Source of the DNA: Reichenbachiella ulvae
GTDB taxonomy: Bacteria > Bacteroidota > Bacteroidia > Cytophagales > Cyclobacteriaceae
DNA: 64,000 nt
NCBI RefSeq assembly: GCF_025833875.1
Contig: NZ_JAOYOD010000001.1
Coordinates: 1,612,001-1,676,000 of the forward strand
Direction: 5' to 3'
Part shown: in pieces, positions 44,844 through 61,535 of the stretch
Layout: every line of letters starts with the position of its first letter
Position numbering within the stretch: the first letter of the stretch is position 1
Program-made: the position numbers and the translations under genes
Notes under the pieces: model-generated
The model's database searches: none
What the model was told of the DNA's origin: nothing
What the model saw: only the letters and a program-made list of their open reading frames with translations

Positions 44844-46796
44844 TCAATTGGTTAGTTTCAAAACTGTAGTATTTCTTAATTGGTTGGCATAGGCTGAGAT
44901 GGCATTGTTCCAGCTTTCGAATCGATCTGGTGATATAATGAGCGTATTCACATAAAAAGTCTTGGTACAAACTATTTCACCCTCTTTCAATTCATAGCCG
45001 ATATCATAACCAAACTCATCCGTTTCAAGCTGAGAATTTTCTGGAAGATAAGTCACCTCATAGCCCTCAGGAACTTCGAATACTGTGACCGAACGGTTCA
45101 CATACTGGTAGTCATTCTCTAGTGCCGAACTTCTGTTTTGTATAAAGTCGGCAGAAGCACTTTTGTCCAGACACAAATTAACATAGGTCTCACCCATCAA
45201 TGAGTTGGTATAGTCCGCAATATTGAATTCGTAATCAATTGTAATCGGCTTGCTCAATTCCGAAAGCCCCTCTATTTCATAACTATCCAGTAAAAACTTA
45301 TTACTTCCTTTACTCAACAAGCGTTGGAGATACTTCTCCTCTCCTTTTTGAGTCTTTTGATTGAGCTTATACGAATTGGCGACCTGAACCAGGCCTGTCA
45401 ATGAAAGGCGGCCTTCACCATACAATACACCATCCTGCAAGCGCACATAGACCGTATCAATCATCAAATTTTTCTCCTTGGGAATCACTGGCACTTCCAG
45501 AATTTCATATTCCTCTTTGCCTTTACTCACCAGGGCTTCCTTCCCTTGAATCATACTCGTAAGGTAACCGAGCGGAGTAAATCCCCCTGTGGCATCCAGG
45601 TAGACCAACTCGTCCCCTAGCTCCACACTGGCAATCATATGATTGTCGACCGAAGGGCTGGCAAGTTCTGAATACCTGTAAGGTAAGTCTCTACTACCAA
45701 TCCATGTATAGTAGGATTCTAATCCCACACTTCTTAGCATGGATACCAGTAGACTGGACATATCCTTGCAGTCTCCATATCTCTTGCTCAAAACATAATC
45801 TGACGAATGAGGAATAAAACCTCTCATTCCCTGCTCAAAAGCAATGTACCTAACATTGCCCTGCACCCATTCGAATATCTTTTGGACTTTTTCGTAATCG
45901 CTTTCAGTCCCATCCAACAGAGAATTTGAAAGTGTCTTTACCGCCTCACTTACTTCGAGAGTGTCAACAAAAGTCCTATACCAGGCATGTAAGTCATCTA
46001 AATCTGCAAGCACCTGAGTCACCTTTCCATCCTTATCAGCATAAGAGGCAATGTTGACATGGATCATCGGACATAAGTAGCTGAATGATGGACTGCCCTC
46101 ATCCATTTTGATTTTGTCCAGATTTTCGGCACTGTACTCAATGACCTTTTGTCCCTCGTCATTTACATATTCTTTAAGGTTGTATTCAAATTCCGGACTC
46201 AAACCGGGGTTTTCATAAACCTCATGTCGCAGCTCAATTCCCTTATCAGCTACGATGGTAAACTTGATCTTCTCAATTGGCATATGAGACATAAAGAAAT
46301 AGGAGCTGAGCAAGTGAGGATCTGAAATCTGACGGGTGTATTTGTTTACTATCTTGGCACCTTCGACCAATTGGGGATAGTTAAAGCTGATCCATTCTGT
46401 ATCGTCATAAAACACATATGAATCTTTATCGAAGGATCTTTTAAACTCCTCCACTTCATACTTCTTGTACTTCTTTTTGAATGGCACGAGACTATAGGCC
46501 TCAATCTCATCCACATAGGAAAAAGAATGACTATACACACGATCCTTCGACCAGGCTACAGGATTATTGAGAATGATGATTTCTTGAAACTCAGTAGATT
46601 CTATCAAAAGCGAATCGCCAGAGTTAACCACCCTCAGTTCACGCCACATCTCGGTCACCACTGCATTTTCATTAGGATATCGGGTTCGGTAGTCATTCAA
46701 CTCTTCCTCGGATGTATAAAAATCCGCTGAGCTATCTATGGCTTGAGCACTAAAACCACAAAGCAACCATAAGCCTATGAATATCCTTCTTCTCAT
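44844..46796 (-). CDS. DUF3857 and transglutaminase-like domain protein (catalytic triad intact)
   Basis: With the start at ATG 46796 (MRRRIFIGLWLLCGFSAQA, a signal peptide) the protein has 650 residues and begins 1 base after the upstream stop. The longer frame to 46856 would overlap that gene and hide the signal peptide. DUF3857 is at about 45-240. The transglutaminase core follows with Cys343 in KRYGDCKDMSSLL, a histidine in SVDNHMIASV and Asp in YLDATGG. Such proteins are periplasmic and may cross-link or cut peptides or isopeptides, with no known substrate. It is flanked by a giant MORN-like protein and a dead paralogue. Confidence 0.87.
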   Translation of the reverse strand: MRRRIFIGLWLLCGFSAQAIDSSADFYTSEEELNDYRTRYPNENAVVTEMWRELRVVNSGDSLLIESTEFQEIIILNNPVAWSKDRVYSHSFSYVDEIEAYSLVPFKKKYKKYEVEEFKRSFDKDSYVFYDDTEWISFNYPQLVEGAKIVNKYTRQISDPHLLSSYFFMSHMPIEKIKFTIVADKGIELRHEVYENPGLSPEFEYNLKEYVNDEGQKVIEYSAENLDKIKMDEGSPSFSYLCPMIHVNIASYADKDGKVTQVLADLDDLHAWYRTFVDTLEVSEAVKTLSNSLLDGTESDYEKVQKIFEWVQGNVRYIAFEQGMRGFIPHSSDYVLSKRYGDCKDMSSLLVSMLRSVGLESYYTWIGSRDLPYRYSELASPSVDNHMIASVELGDELVYLDATGGFTPLGYLTSMIQGKEALVSKGKEEYEILEVPVIPKEKNLMIDTVYVRLQDGVLYGEGRLSLTGLVQVANSYKLNQKTQKGEEKYLQRLLSKGSNKFLLDSYEIEGLSELSKPITIDYEFNIADYTNSLMGETYVNLCLDKSASADFIQNRSSALENDYQYVNRSVTVFEVPEGYEVTYLPENSQLETDEFGYDIGYELKEGEIVCTKTFYVNTLIISPDRFESWNNAISAYANQLRNTTVLKLTN

Positions 46797-57199: not shown

Positions 57200-58312
57200 T
57201 CAGGCTTTTTCAGTCTTTGAATCCTCGCCATTCATGATGGCTGTTTGTCTCTTGATAGAGTTGTTATGGATCATTTCATAAAGATCATGAACAAACTGCT
57301 CTTGTAGCAACAAGCTCTTTCCTTTATTCACTCGATTTTCCATGATCTCTTCATATCTACCTACCTGTAGGATCGTGATATTGTGCTCTTTCTTATGCAA
57401 AGCAATTTCCTCTGCTACTTGCATTCTCTGAGCCATCACTTCTAGCAATTCGTTATCGATCTTATCAATTTTCTCTCTCAGGTTTTTCAATCTGATTTCG
57501 AAATCAACATCTGCAGAATTAGGTTCTCTTATGATCAAACGATCCAGAATACCTCCTAATGTTTTTGGTGTAATTTGCTGTTTTGCATCACTCAATGCAT
57601 TGTCAGGATCGATGTGTGATTCGATCATCACCCCTTCCATCTGAAGGTCAAATGCTTTTTGAGATACTGGCTCAATCAAGGCTCTGTTACCAGCGATATG
57701 GCTAGGATCACAGATGATTGGCAGATTAGGAATAATCCTTTTCAACTCGATCGGAATCTCCCAAGTTGGATCATTGCGGTATTGTGATCCACTCTTAGCA
57801 GAGAATCCACGGTGAATACCACCCAGCTTGGTGATACCAGCTTGATTGATTCTTTCCAACGCACCAATCCACAATTGTAGATCTGGGTTGATTGGGTTTT
57901 TCACCAATACAGGTACATCATGACCTTTCAATGCGTCAGCCACTTCCTGCACTGAGAATGGATTCACTGTAGTTCTAGCTCCCACCCAAAGGATATCTAC
58001 ATTGAACCTCAACGCCAACTCTACGTGTTCCGCGTTGGCCACCTCTACAGCTGTCAACAGACCTGTTTCAGCTTTTGCTTTTTCCAACCATTTCAAACCG
58101 ACTACTCCGATACCTTCGAAGGCACCTGGTCTGGTTCTTGGCTTCCAAATCCCAGCACGCAACACTTTGATGTTGGTGTGCTCTTTGATTTGACGAGCCG
58201 TCTCTAATACTTGCTCTTCACTTTCTGCACTACATGGTCCACCAATGATCAAAGGTGCGTTAAGCCCTTCAATCCAGTTTTCCATCGGCGATAATGTCAA
58301 ATTAACTTTCAT
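57200..58312 (-). CDS. Bifunctional DAHP synthase/chorismate mutase
   Basis: A 370-residue fusion. Residues about 15-265 are a type I-beta (KDOPS-like) DAHP synthase: IIGGPCSAES, GIWKPRTRPGAFEG, KNPINPDLQLW and ICDPSHIAGN provide the substrate and metal residues. Residues about 275-355 are an AroQ-type chorismate mutase (LREKIDKIDNELLEVMAQRMQVAEEIALHKKE). It makes the first shikimate-pathway intermediate and also converts chorismate to prephenate, the substrate of the two upstream enzymes. It is the last gene of the leftward operon, 17 bases after the tyrA remnant, so the tyrA frameshift could reduce its expression by polarity. Confidence 0.95.
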   Translation of the reverse strand: MKVNLTLSPMENWIEGLNAPLIIGGPCSAESEEQVLETARQIKEHTNIKVLRAGIWKPRTRPGAFEGIGVVGLKWLEKAKAETGLLTAVEVANAEHVELALRFNVDILWVGARTTVNPFSVQEVADALKGHDVPVLVKNPINPDLQLWIGALERINQAGITKLGGIHRGFSAKSGSQYRNDPTWEIPIELKRIIPNLPIICDPSHIAGNRALIEPVSQKAFDLQMEGVMIESHIDPDNALSDAKQQITPKTLGGILDRLIIREPNSADVDFEIRLKNLREKIDKIDNELLEVMAQRMQVAEEIALHKKEHNITILQVGRYEEIMENRVNKGKSLLLQEQFVHDLYEMIHNNSIKRQTAIMNGEDSKTEKA

Positions 58313-58329
58313 GTCTTTAATAATATGAG

Positions 58330-59224
58330 TTAAACTACTTCTTCCTTTATATGACTGTCTTTTTTCTTTTTACTGTCGATTCCTTCTAAAACCCTACGGA
58401 TTTCATTGGCATTATCCATGCATCCTATCATGGCATCCTCTTCTCCCTGATCCAACAAAGCCTTGAAAGCTGTCAGATTATCTATATATGCACCCAGCGC
58501 ATTGCTGATGTGCTTTTTATTCTGCTTAAAAATAGGCGCCCACATCTGAGGTGAACTTTTCGCCAGACGAACCGTTGAGGCGAAACCACTACCCGCCAGG
58601 TTAAAGATATTCACCTCGTCTTTTTCAATCTCCAATACCGTCTGTCCCAATATAAAAGAACTGATATGAGATATGTGCGACACATATGCGATGTGCAAAT
58701 CATCGAGACTTACTATCCATCTCAATGATGTGCATCCCCAAACTTTCCAGACAAGACTTAGCTAATTCGTAAGAAGTAACCTGTGACTCTTCTGCATCAC
58801 AAATGATCCCTGTCTTACCATCAAACAGGCTCGAAAAGGCAGCTTCTGGACCGGAATTTTCTGTACCTGCGATCGGGTGAGCCGCCACAAAACTCTTGCG
58901 ATTGCTGTGTCCCTGAACCACCTCACAGATTTGTTCCTTAGTAGATCCCAAATCCATTACGGTAGTCCTGTCATCGATCTGATCGAGCAAAGCAGGAAGC
59001 AATTTGGTCATTCCATCCACTGGGATGGCCAAAATAATGAGGTCAGCCAATTTGATAGCCTGCTGAAACACAACTGTCTCGTCTACCAGCCCAAGCTCTA
59101 CCGCCTTCTGGCAGTTTTCGTCACTTAGGTCTACCCCAAGTATCTGGTCAGCAAACCCTACTTCTTTGAGTCGCTTTCCTACTGATCCTCCGATCAGACC
59201 CAAACCTATGATTGATACGATCAT
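58330..59224 (-). pseudogene. tyrA: Prephenate dehydrogenase, frameshifted by one inserted base
   Basis: Two overlapping frames together encode one TyrA. The first (59224 to 58700) runs from MIVSIIGLGLIGGSVGKRL through DLGSTKEQIC and HPIAGTENSGPEAA to GMHIIEMDSKSR and a TGA. The second continues from DLHIAYVSHISHISSFILG to the end at 58330. Removing the single base at 58704 (C on plus, G on minus) joins them and turns the junction into MDSKSHDLHIAYVSH, restoring the His-Asp of the conserved HD motif. The joined protein would be 297 residues, normal for the family. As given, the enzyme making 4-hydroxyphenylpyruvate for tyrosine is broken. The start at 59224 overlaps the aminotransferase stop (ATGA). 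It could be a recent mutation, a sequencing error or, less likely, recoding. Confidence 0.9.
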
Positions 59225-60378
59225 GCTTTTACTGCTTCTAATCTGCCTAATGCTTTTGTCAATACCTCCTGAGTAGAACACAGGGATATACGAATATAAC
59301 CTTCTCCGTTGGAACCAAAAACAGTTCCTGGTGTGATAAACACATGCTTGTCTTGCAATATCTCATCGACAAACTCCTCACTCCCTCTGCCAGCTGGGAT
59401 TTTTGCCCATAGAAACATACCTGATTGCTCCTCGTCATGGCTACATCCCAGAGTATCCAGAAGTCTCTCTGCTAACAGCCTTCTCTCCTGGTATTCCTTA
59501 TTGATGGTATCAAACCAATCCTTAGGCAATTTCAATGCTTTCACTGCTGCGTCCTGTACAGGTCGGAACATTCCAGAATCCACGTTGGACTTCACCCTCA
59601 GGATCGCATCGATGTACTCCCTACGGCCACTGACCATCCCTACTCTCCAGCCAGCCATATTAAAGGCCTTACTCATGGAGTTCAGTTCCAGGCAACTCTC
59701 CTTGCTACCTTCTACAGACAGCAAACTCAATGGATTGTCATTCAGAATAAAGCTGTATGGGTTATCATTGATTACCAACACCTCGTTTTCGTTTGCAAAT
59801 TCAACCAGACTCTCCAAGATTTCCTGATTGGCTTTTTTACCTGTCGGCATATTGGGGTAGTTCACCCACATCAACTTGGCATCCTTCACGACCTGACCAT
59901 CTATATGATCAAATCTCGGCACCCAGCCATTTTCTTCTTTCAGGTCGTAAAAAACCACCTTCGCCCCCATCATTTCAGCCGCTGTTTTGTATGCAGGGTA
60001 GCCAGGATTAGGGATCAATACGGTATCGCCCGGATTCAAAAATGCCATGGAGATATACATGACTCCCTCCTTAGAACCAAGGAGTGGTAAAATCTCTGAG
60101 GCAGGATCTAAATCTACCTGATAATGGGTATGATAGAAATCCGCAATCGCTGCTCTCAATTCAGGAATCGAGCGATAGGACTGATAGGCATGATTAGTTG
60201 CATCACTTGCGCTTCTAATCAGCTCTTCTGCCACTTCATCGGCAGGAGGCAGGTCCGGGCTACCAATCCCCAGATTGATCACATCCTTTCCATCTGCAAC
60301 CATCCCTCTAATTTCATCCAGCTTCTTGGAGAAATAGTATTCTTTTACTTCGGCTATTCTATCTGCTACCTTTATCAT
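59221..60378 (-). CDS. Pyridoxal-phosphate aminotransferase of the aromatic operon
   Basis: The 385-residue class I/II (fold type I) aminotransferase has NLGIGSPDLPP, LLGSKEGVMYIS, NPGYPAY, VNYPNMPTGKKA and the PLP-lysine motif ELNSMSKAFNMAGWRVG; GYIRISLC holds the carboxylate-binding arginine. By position between pheA and tyrA it should transaminate phenylpyruvate and 4-hydroxyphenylpyruvate, or prephenate. The motifs also fit the LL-DAP/aspartate aminotransferase subgroups, so substrate is inferred from context. Its start lies inside the last 20 bases of pheA, and its stop overlaps the tyrA start. Confidence 0.9.
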   Translation of the reverse strand: MIKVADRIAEVKEYYFSKKLDEIRGMVADGKDVINLGIGSPDLPPADEVAEELIRSASDATNHAYQSYRSIPELRAAIADFYHTHYQVDLDPASEILPLLGSKEGVMYISMAFLNPGDTVLIPNPGYPAYKTAAEMMGAKVVFYDLKEENGWVPRFDHIDGQVVKDAKLMWVNYPNMPTGKKANQEILESLVEFANENEVLVINDNPYSFILNDNPLSLLSVEGSKESCLELNSMSKAFNMAGWRVGMVSGRREYIDAILRVKSNVDSGMFRPVQDAAVKALKLPKDWFDTINKEYQERRLLAERLLDTLGCSHDEEQSGMFLWAKIPAGRGSEEFVDEILQDKHVFITPGTVFGSNGEGYIRISLCSTQEVLTKALGRLEAVKA

Positions 60379-61204
60379 AATCAGGCATTACTCCTTTATC
60401 ATATTCACCATGTACGATTATTGATTCCGTACTTTTTTCTATTGCTTTCATTGCGGCCTGGTAAGCGGAATAATCCTCCCAAACCACATCTATATTGAAT
60501 GCATACCTGTAGGGCTGACCCAAAACAGGCATAGACTGTATCTTAGTCAAGTTGATTTTATGCTCTTTGAACACCACCAACACATCTGACAAACGCCCTG
60601 GATCGTGCTTGGTCATTATCCTCAGCGAAGCTTTTTTGGGCTTGCTGTTGTGACCATTCATCCTGCTCTTCATGATCAGGAATCGCGTGTAATTCAGCTT
60701 GTTTGTCTCGATATTCTCGTCTAGAATATCCATTTCGAATAGTTCTGCTGCCTTTTTACTGGCTATGGCTCCTGCTTGTGTCAGTCCGGCTTCTTTGATC
60801 ATCCTTACACTATCCGCTGTGTCGTCATATTCGGTCAGCTTCATGTTAGGATATTGTGACAAAAAATCCGCACACTGCAATAGCGCCATAGGATGCGAAA
60901 ACACTTGATTTAGATCTTCTGCTTTCTTACCTGCATGCCCTATCAGATTCATTTCTATTCTGATATAAACCTCTCCAGTGACCTTGAGATCAAACTCATT
61001 CATCAGAGAATAATTCGGAAGAATACTTCCAGCAATGGTATTTTCAATGGCCATCACTCCATAATCCAATTGTTTTTCGGCAATCGCTTTGGCCAGTGAT
61101 CTAAAATCATGAAAGGCCTTAATATCTAGCTCCTTACCCTTAAAGTATTTACTAGCTGCCTGATCATGAAACGACCCCAAAACACCCTGAATCCCTACTT
61201 CCAT
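60359..61204 (-). CDS. pheA: Prephenate dehydratase with ACT domain
   Basis: The 281-residue protein has a prephenate dehydratase domain (about 1-185: VGIQGVLGSFHDQAASKYF, GVMAIENTIAGSILPNYSL, and the conserved TRF in NYTRFLIM) and a C-terminal ACT domain (about 195-275). The ACT segment reads NLTKIQSMPVLG, where the phenylalanine-binding ESRP motif would be, so allosteric inhibition by Phe may be weak or different. It converts prephenate to phenylpyruvate. It is the first structural gene of the operon and follows an aromatic-rich leader ORF and terminator, so attenuation is the likely control. Confidence 0.95.
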   Translation of the reverse strand: MEVGIQGVLGSFHDQAASKYFKGKELDIKAFHDFRSLAKAIAEKQLDYGVMAIENTIAGSILPNYSLMNEFDLKVTGEVYIRIEMNLIGHAGKKAEDLNQVFSHPMALLQCADFLSQYPNMKLTEYDDTADSVRMIKEAGLTQAGAIASKKAAELFEMDILDENIETNKLNYTRFLIMKSRMNGHNSKPKKASLRIMTKHDPGRLSDVLVVFKEHKINLTKIQSMPVLGQPYRYAFNIDVVWEDYSAYQAAMKAIEKSTESIIVHGEYDKGVMPDYDKGSR

Positions 61205-61221
61205 TTATTCACGTTTATATC

Positions 61222-61252
61222 AAAAAAAAACCCCGAGATTGTCGGGGTTTTT
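61222..61252 (-). terminator. Attenuator: intrinsic terminator in the pheA leader
   Basis: Read leftward, AAAAACCCCGA (61252-61242) pairs with TCGGGGTTTTT (61236-61226) around the loop CAATC, and the T-run continues to 61222. It lies 18 bases upstream of the pheA ATG, so as a terminator it would stop transcription before the operon. TCAGGGG inside the leader ORF (61294-61288) can pair with CCCCGA (61247-61242) with one bulged A, which would block the terminator. That is the expected anti-terminator. Confidence 0.82.
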
Positions 61253-61276
61253 ATATTTTCTGTTTGCAAAAAAGAA

Positions 61277-61348
61277 CTAGCCTTTCACCCCTGATGCTTT
61301 TGCATAGAAATAAAAATAATAGTAGTTCCAGAATGCGCTTTTCTTCAT
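61277..61348 (-). CDS. Aromatic-rich leader peptide controlling the pheA operon
   Basis: A 23-codon ORF on the minus strand starts at ATG 61348 with MKKSA. It continues FWNYYYFYFY (residues 6-15) and ends AKASGVKG with TAG at 61277-61279. Nine of ten consecutive codons are aromatic (five Tyr, three Phe, one Trp). It lies 72 bases ahead of pheA, with a terminator between. This is the plan of pheA/trp leader peptides. Ribosomes stalling on Phe, Tyr or Trp codons would expose the anti-terminator strand at 61288-61294, while full translation would cover it. The stalled-ribosome logic is known for the class; its action here is inference. Confidence 0.85.
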   Translation of the reverse strand: MKKSAFWNYYYFYFYAKASGVKG

Positions 61349-61370
61349 CTTTTTGTATTCTTTCGAGCTT

Positions 61371-61401
61371 CAAAGGTGAAAATTGATTAAATAAATTCAA
61401 A
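61371..61401 (-). promoter_or_regulatory. Candidate promoter of the aromatic operon
   Basis: On the minus strand TTTG (61401-61398), a 19-base spacer and CACCTTTG (61378-61371) match the Bacteroidota TTTG/TAnnTTTG promoter with one mismatch in the -7 box. Transcription would start about 15-20 bases before the leader ATG. Confidence 0.45.
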
Positions 61402-61535
61402 GCAAATCCATGAAAATATTTACACATTTTCAATATTCTAATTAAAGACTATGAATTTTTGCAATTATTTCAGCTTTTATCGTAGCAATCCCTTTATTTG
61501 CAACCTTCTGATTGAATAAATCATTGACATATATA

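Follow-up and report, generated by a model that had tools for sequence, protein, structure and literature searches.

Organization of the pheA leader region

The 64,000-nucleotide (nt) stretch of the Reichenbachiella ulvae genome analysed here (the window; all coordinates are positions within it) carries on its minus strand an operon that begins with pheA and is preceded by what is very probably a ribosome-mediated transcription attenuator sensing phenylalanine and tyrosine. The region comprises, in this order, a promoter-like pair of elements, a short open reading frame (ORF) rich in aromatic codons, an intrinsic terminator and then pheA itself, an arrangement that an earlier note on this DNA had described and that is confirmed here. 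The predicted promoter (61371–61401) is of the Bacteroidota type, with TTTG at 61401–61398 (−33), a 19-nt spacer and CAccTTTG at 61378–61371 (−7), the latter having a single mismatch to the flavobacterial −7 consensus TAnnTTTG (PMC9723704). The leader ORF (61277–61348; ATG at 61348, stop codon TAG at 61279–61277) has 23 codons (MKKSAFWNYYYFYFYAKASGVKG), of which nine specify aromatic residues (five Tyr, three Phe and one Trp) within the putative sensor run F-W-N-Y-Y-Y-F-Y-F-Y (61304–61333). Between this ORF and pheA stands the terminator (61222–61251), with a stem at 61251–61227 (AAAACCCCGA/TCGGGGTTTT) and a T-run extending to 61222; 17 nt, rather than the 18 given previously, separate the end of the T-run from the pheA ATG at 61204. 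The predicted fold of 61215–61401 has an energy of −43.5 kcal/mol, as against −30.3 ± 3.7 kcal/mol for shuffled sequences, none of 200 of which folded as well.

Such a concentration of aromatic codons is exceptional in the window. Among the 879 ATG-started short ORFs of 8–45 codons with distinct stops on the two strands of the window, the leader ORF is the only one with at least seven F/Y/W in 12 residues; when GTG and TTG starts are added (1,685 short ORFs), two more pass, with seven and eight aromatic residues against nine in the leader. Both of these are TTG-started and lie on the minus strand, with starts at 44847 and 28987.

The genes downstream of the leader make the amino acids that it is proposed to sense. 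They are pheA, encoding prephenate dehydratase (60359–61204); a gene for a pyridoxal phosphate-dependent aminotransferase (59221–60378), whose own ATG overlaps the end of pheA; tyrA, encoding prephenate dehydrogenase (58330–59281); and a gene for a DAHP synthase fused to chorismate mutase (CM; 57200–58312), all on the minus strand. The best NCBIfam matches of all four fall under the curated cut-offs, so these names are family assignments. In the window, tyrA is split at 58700–58725 into two overlapping frames (58700–59281 and 58330–58725), whereas all five genus relatives examined read both parts in one frame; the split may stem from an error in sequencing or assembly, or from a mutation that is recent.

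Conservation across Bacteroidota

The breadth of the arrangement was assessed at 104 pheA loci. A PheA search of 59 genomes gave a match in 49, and 30 places were taken as loci, leaving aside 19 further PheA matches; six of the 30 (L024–L027, L029 and L030), which match another, more distant PheA type, were excluded from the counts. The other 80 loci, from named genome contigs, are the best 80 by similarity of at least 585 relatives, which makes for an uneven sample. A locus was counted when it had an ORF with at least seven F/Y/W in 12 residues followed by a terminator, and 65 of the 104 do: all eight same-genus genomes, that of the window included, five of the 16 kept loci outside the genus from the 59-genome search (L012, L013, L014, L016 and L028), and 52 of the 80 named-contig loci. 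The retention of both aromatic run and terminator throughout the genus supports the earlier attenuator reading. Six more loci have the ORF without a terminator call; at one of these, from a member of the Bacteroidaceae (L100), reading of the sequence reveals a terminator and, 12 nt past the last Phe codon, a GAGCGGG that matches it. At L022, leaders are present and their terminators are not called by this simple rule.

Carriers include Flavobacterium, Flagellimonas, Winogradskyella, Kordia, Capnocytophaga, Mucilaginibacter, Pedobacter, Sphingobacterium, Hymenobacter, Phaeodactylibacter, Paludibacter and several Bacteroidales metagenome-assembled genomes (MAGs), a range that places the device across the phylum Bacteroidota. 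Under the same rule, no leader was found at the three Prolixibacteraceae loci (L037, L060 and L093), at those of Mariniphaga (L047), Maribellus (L102) and Cecembia (L048), or at those of the Calditrichaceae and Caldithrix MAGs (L101 and L106). An open frame of at least 80 codons ending within 60 nt of pheA is present at 11 of the 39 loci without a leader-plus-terminator call (L022 included) and at none of the 65 with one. Two contigs labelled as Legionellaceae (L051) and Bdellovibrio (L039) MAGs encode a Bacteroidota-like PheA, L051 with a leader; these contigs are probably misbinned.

Several controls address the specificity of the rule. It is passed by three of 3,991 other windows of 450 nt, largely coding, taken from both strands of these loci, and by none of 520 dinucleotide shuffles, and when 12 other residue groups were sought in the same place at the 104 loci, LIV gave nine hits, IL five, ST one and the remaining nine none. 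The three passing windows may be other leaders. The Bacteroidota-type promoter pattern (TTG-N18..21-[TC]AnnTTTG) precedes 29 of 65 leaders at a distance of up to 90 nt, where mononucleotide shuffles would give 0.6. One could suppose that the terminator merely ends another transcript or makes a small RNA and that the leader is a chance ORF, and a divergent open frame of 206 codons does start at 61512 on the opposite strand. Conservation at 65 of 104 loci against these controls contradicts this explanation, as does the covariation between antiterminator and terminator described below, and its probability is practically negligible. The survey flags leader genes below ordinary gene-calling length in dozens of genomes.

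An antiterminator strand covaries with the terminator

A candidate antiterminator strand (TCAGGGGT; 61287–61294, minus strand) lies inside the leader ORF, its core GGGGT (61291–61287) beginning 12 nt after the last Tyr codon. The longest unbroken pairing is that of GGGGT with ACCCC at 61248–61244 in the 5′ arm of the terminator. The earlier note had proposed that TCAGGGG (61294–61288) pairs with this arm; the pairing stands and the element is the same, with a bulge, its best unbroken match being shifted to 61291–61287.

The note had also suggested looking for covariation of the terminator in relatives, and this is found. The mean pairing score of the antiterminator strand is 18.5 with the unit's own terminator, 14.3 with those of other species and 10.6 with shuffled regions, and none of 5,000 permutations reached the observed sum. 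When restricted to 26 non-redundant units, own-terminator pairing is 17.0 versus 13.3 ± 0.5 (0 of 10,000 permutations). Matched changes on the two sides are evident in individual genomes: GGGGT/ACCCC in R. ulvae, CGAGGT/GCCTCG in L005, CGGGACTTT/AAAGTCCCG in L014 and GTCAGG/CCTGAC in L028. Comparison across species thus indicates that the strand covaries with the terminator 5′ arm that it shares, and antiterminator and terminator are predicted to be mutually exclusive.

The predicted fold further contains a protector hairpin (61274–61328, minus strand), in which GAACUA (61328–61323) pairs with UAGUUC (61279–61274) around an inner helix formed between the aromatic codons and GCAUCAGGGGUGAAA. 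In this genome, the core is predicted to be paired with the aromatic codons with a probability of 0.996, hiding the antiterminator strand. As a general feature, the protector is supported in part: protector pairing exceeds 0.5 in 55 of 66 units, and shuffling of the codon order gives 47%. The features of a classical attenuator that can be tested on sequence are present, the protector in part only.

The antiterminator spacing would match the edge of a stalled ribosome

Spacing was measured over the whole stretch from the last aromatic codon to the terminator, with a median length of 52 nt. Within it, the antiterminator core starts 7–16 nt after the last aromatic codon in all 66 units (median 10, standard deviation (s.d.) 2.2), a range that was set after an earlier look at the spacing data; in shuffled stretches, 23% of core starts fall within these limits (s.d. 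15.4). The distance from core to stop codon is loose, with an s.d. of 8.4 and values from −27 to +6 among the 58 units with a strong core. In Escherichia coli footprints, a ribosome with a given codon in its A site reaches approximately 9–10 nt past that codon. Since the core starts 9 nt or more after the last aromatic codon in 47 of the 58 units, the antiterminator strand would lie at or just beyond the edge of a stalled ribosome. For a ribosome that has reached the stop codon, the predicted overlap with the core is 3 nt or more in 54 of 58 units.

This placement also bears on the type of sensor. A metabolite- or tRNA-sensing RNA (riboswitch or T-box) or a protein-binding leader, with an incidental ORF, would fit the strong overall fold; yet an Rfam search of the whole window returned no family at gathering score, T-box included, and the weak matches to Phe, Leu, Thr, Trp and His leaders, all below gathering score, were taken to reflect general architecture. 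Moreover, an in-frame aromatic run with mixed synonymous codons recurs across very different RNA sequences, and the position of the antiterminator is set relative to the last aromatic codon. Together, these points make a sensing RNA with an incidental ORF very improbable.

The leader codons point to phenylalanine and tyrosine

Each of the 66 leaders holds at least two Phe and at least two Tyr codons, adding up to 307 F and 251 Y. Counted as far as the last aromatic codon, TTT (213), TTC (89), TAT (141) and TAC (103) are all in use; this mixture of synonymous codons argues that the residues matter, not a U-tract. An attenuator responding to one amino acid only, Phe or Tyr, with the other aromatic codons being kept for RNA pairing, has in its favour that UUY and UAY are similar as pairing partners and that F and Y swap among members of the genus. 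It is nevertheless unlikely given the presence of both residues in every leader and the nature of the genes that accompany them.

The latter point comes from 71 loci with enough downstream DNA, which exclude 33 of the 104 and all eight genus loci among them. A DAHP synthase/CM gene lies within 4 kb downstream of pheA at 51 of 51 loci with a leader ORF and at 4 of 20 leaderless loci (Fisher's exact test, P = 1.5 × 10⁻¹², uncorrected for kinship); one of these four, L052, has a six-aromatic ORF and a strong terminator. Presence of the leader therefore tracks the DAHP synthase/CM gene, and a combined Phe and Tyr signal fits control of this shared entry enzyme, which supports the earlier suggestion that the Tyr codons relate to the shared DAHP synthase. 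tyrA was considered as the reason for the Tyr codons and rejected: located by tblastn with the TyrA of the window, a search that may miss divergent tyrA genes, it shows no association with the leader (16 of 51 versus 5 of 20, P = 0.77).

The earlier note had envisaged a multi-amino-acid sensor; its Phe and Tyr components hold, and the Trp component does not. In favour of a three-way aromatic sensor that includes Trp through a single UGG codon, UGG is present in six of the eight genus leaders and in 21 of 66 leaders overall. Against it, no leader has more than one Trp codon, and W makes up 21 of 579 aromatic leader residues (3.6%), compared with 10.3% of F + Y + W in window frames of at least 250 codons. 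UGG is replaced by an Arg codon in L002 and by a Tyr codon in L005, and the R. ulvae genome has a separate ORF with a Trp run before trpE. Trp was rejected as a sensed amino acid on this scarcity and on its loss in the two relatives, and the three-way sensor appears highly unlikely.

Proposed mechanism of attenuation

The ORF, the terminator, the covarying antiterminator, the fixed spacing, the predicted protector fold in this genome and the operon association come from sequence and comparison; from them we infer translation of the leader, ribosome stalling, termination and the response to amino acids. In the proposed mechanism, transcription would start approximately 20 nt before the leader ORF, judging from the promoter. 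When Phe-tRNA and Tyr-tRNA are plentiful, the ribosome would clear the aromatic run and cover the antiterminator strand (GGGGU, within the Gly–Val codons near the stop), the terminator would form, and the RNA would end at about 61222. When either amino acid is scarce, the ribosome would stall in the run with the antiterminator strand just ahead of its leading edge; the stall would free the strand from the protector hairpin, which is made with the aromatic codons, and allow it to pair with the terminator 5′ arm. Polymerase would then continue into pheA and the aminotransferase, tyrA and DAHP synthase/CM genes. If the leader is not translated, the protector hairpin would conceal the strand and termination would be the default.

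With 7–16 nt between the last sensor codon and the antiterminator strand, a ribosome leaving the run would cover the strand in its first translocations, and we slightly favour the view that Bacteroidota widely operate a bivalent Phe and Tyr attenuator of this occlusion type on the pheA–DAHP synthase operon, with tandem units (see below) as a possible AND gate. If correct, occlusion demands close coupling of transcription and translation, in a group in which flavobacteria have been described as lacking Shine–Dalgarno sequences (PMC9723704). The geometry of the device, kept in many Bacteroidota, would then be evolutionary evidence that ribosomes follow closely behind RNA polymerase there; our literature search turned up no direct test of ribosome–RNA polymerase closeness in this phylum. 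The leader would also make a ready reporter of how well environmental and gut Bacteroidota are supplied with Phe and Tyr.

Apart from the choice of the spacing range, several observations weigh against an attenuator of this kind, or against its generality. The unbroken antiterminator comprises just 5 bp in R. ulvae. Many terminators are alike, which leaves each unit weakly informative when taken singly: ranked among the partners, a unit's own terminator arm reaches the top 5% in 9 of 66 units and the top 20% in 41. The protector, strong here, is not general, being near zero in L013, L014, L016 and L028 among 16 units inspected. In 11 of the 58 units with a strong core, the core starts 7–8 nt after the last aromatic codon, such that a ribosome stalled on that codon would touch its edge, and in 4 of 58 a ribosome at the stop codon would not cover it by at least 3 nt. 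The leader ORF is missing at 33 of the 104 loci, and codon changes in the leader within the genus are mostly nonsynonymous, which gives no sign of ordinary protein-level constraint. Finally, the probable trp and his leaders of R. ulvae (see below) are without a comparable core (scores of 10 and 10.6).

Comparison with known attenuators

Leader-peptide attenuation is taught from enterobacteria; the device is classical in principle and has received little study in Bacteroidota, many of which carry it. The E. coli pheA leader consists of a peptide rich in end-product codons, a protector, an antiterminator and a terminator before pheA, and the sensing codons of pheL are Phe only. The R. ulvae leader likewise has end-product codons, a candidate antiterminator and a terminator, and is predicted to form a protector. 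It differs in combining Phe and Tyr codons, in having the antiterminator strand inside the end of the leader ORF, and in preceding an operon that takes in the aminotransferase, tyrA and DAHP synthase/CM genes. The corresponding Rfam family, Phe_leader (RF01859), is the top weak match in a 301-base search, at 29.7 bits against a gathering score of 55 (E = 0.0032); the device is not a member of this family as curated.

Bacteroid-trp RNA (RF01692) is entered as possibly cis-regulatory. It is an RNA motif of Bacteroidetes (PMC2864571). The window contains no match to it at gathering score, and it is absent from the 35 matches that a search of 61150–61450 gave at E ≤ 5. The uORFC-13-1 motif before aroF in Acholeplasma, proposed to contain a Phe-codon upstream ORF and a terminator before a DAHP synthase gene, belongs to another phylum, differs in sequence, and features one or more Phe codons in place of a Phe/Tyr run (PMC8632094).

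The earlier note knew of no experimental description in this lineage. Our literature search, which did not extend to most subscription papers, likewise found neither an experimental study nor any account of a Phe/Tyr leader in Bacteroidota; predictions do exist. Table 7 of a 2005 paper lists, from Merino's database, a putative attenuator before the Bacteroides thetaiotaomicron pheA > hisHb > aroA-aroQ > tyrA operon (PMC1173090), which is the same operon type in the same phylum; that entry is given without leader peptide, codons or mechanism. A 2021 study described structured 5′ elements ahead of pheA and hisG that have no Rfam match and are conserved in further genera of Flavobacteriaceae, and it reported strong signs that leader-peptide attenuation operates upstream of amino acid operons (PMC9723704). 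The pheA element reported there for Flavobacterium psychrophilum precedes the same gene, and the F. psychrophilum locus in our survey (L108) carries an aromatic leader and terminator. Long 5′ untranslated regions with small ORFs resembling leader peptides have also been described in B. thetaiotaomicron (PMC7366714). The attenuator had thus been predicted in outline in the phylum; what is added here is its anatomy, breadth, bivalence, ribosome-sized spacing and tandem forms.

Tandem leaders and probable leaders of other operons

At nine loci (L022, L110, L077, L115–L119 and L139), all from Hymenobacter-like genomes or Phaeodactylibacter, two aromatic leaders stand in series before pheA; L111–L113 have a single leader. 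One stretch of each tandem unit is complementary to the sequence ahead of the following T-run, with uncontrolled scores of 14 to 31. The terminator rule recognizes both units of L077, neither unit of L022 and a single unit in each of the other seven loci, and in the second unit of L110, L022, L115, L117, L118 and L119 the predicted fold puts a hairpin directly before the T-run. In the family of genome G048, a PheA match was obtained in 29 of 41 genomes, giving 30 places; L136, an inner part of PheA, was left out, and the scan of 28 further loci showed one or more aromatic leaders at each.

Comparable leaders were sought before other amino acid operons of the R. ulvae genome. Within 190 nt upstream of the trpE match (L140) lies a short ORF that starts with GTG, contains a WWW run and has a terminator behind it; it is probably a Trp leader, and the locus has no Rfam match at gathering score, Bacteroid-trp included. 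Similarly, approximately 180 nt upstream of the hisG match (L144), a short ORF (MITNRQHHHHTMIAQARW) containing HHHH precedes a terminator and is probably a His leader. None was seen before ilvD (L145) or the aspartokinase gene (L146). Among the Hymenobacter-like genomes, one has two adjacent PheA matches on a single contig (G078 C13; L136 and L139).
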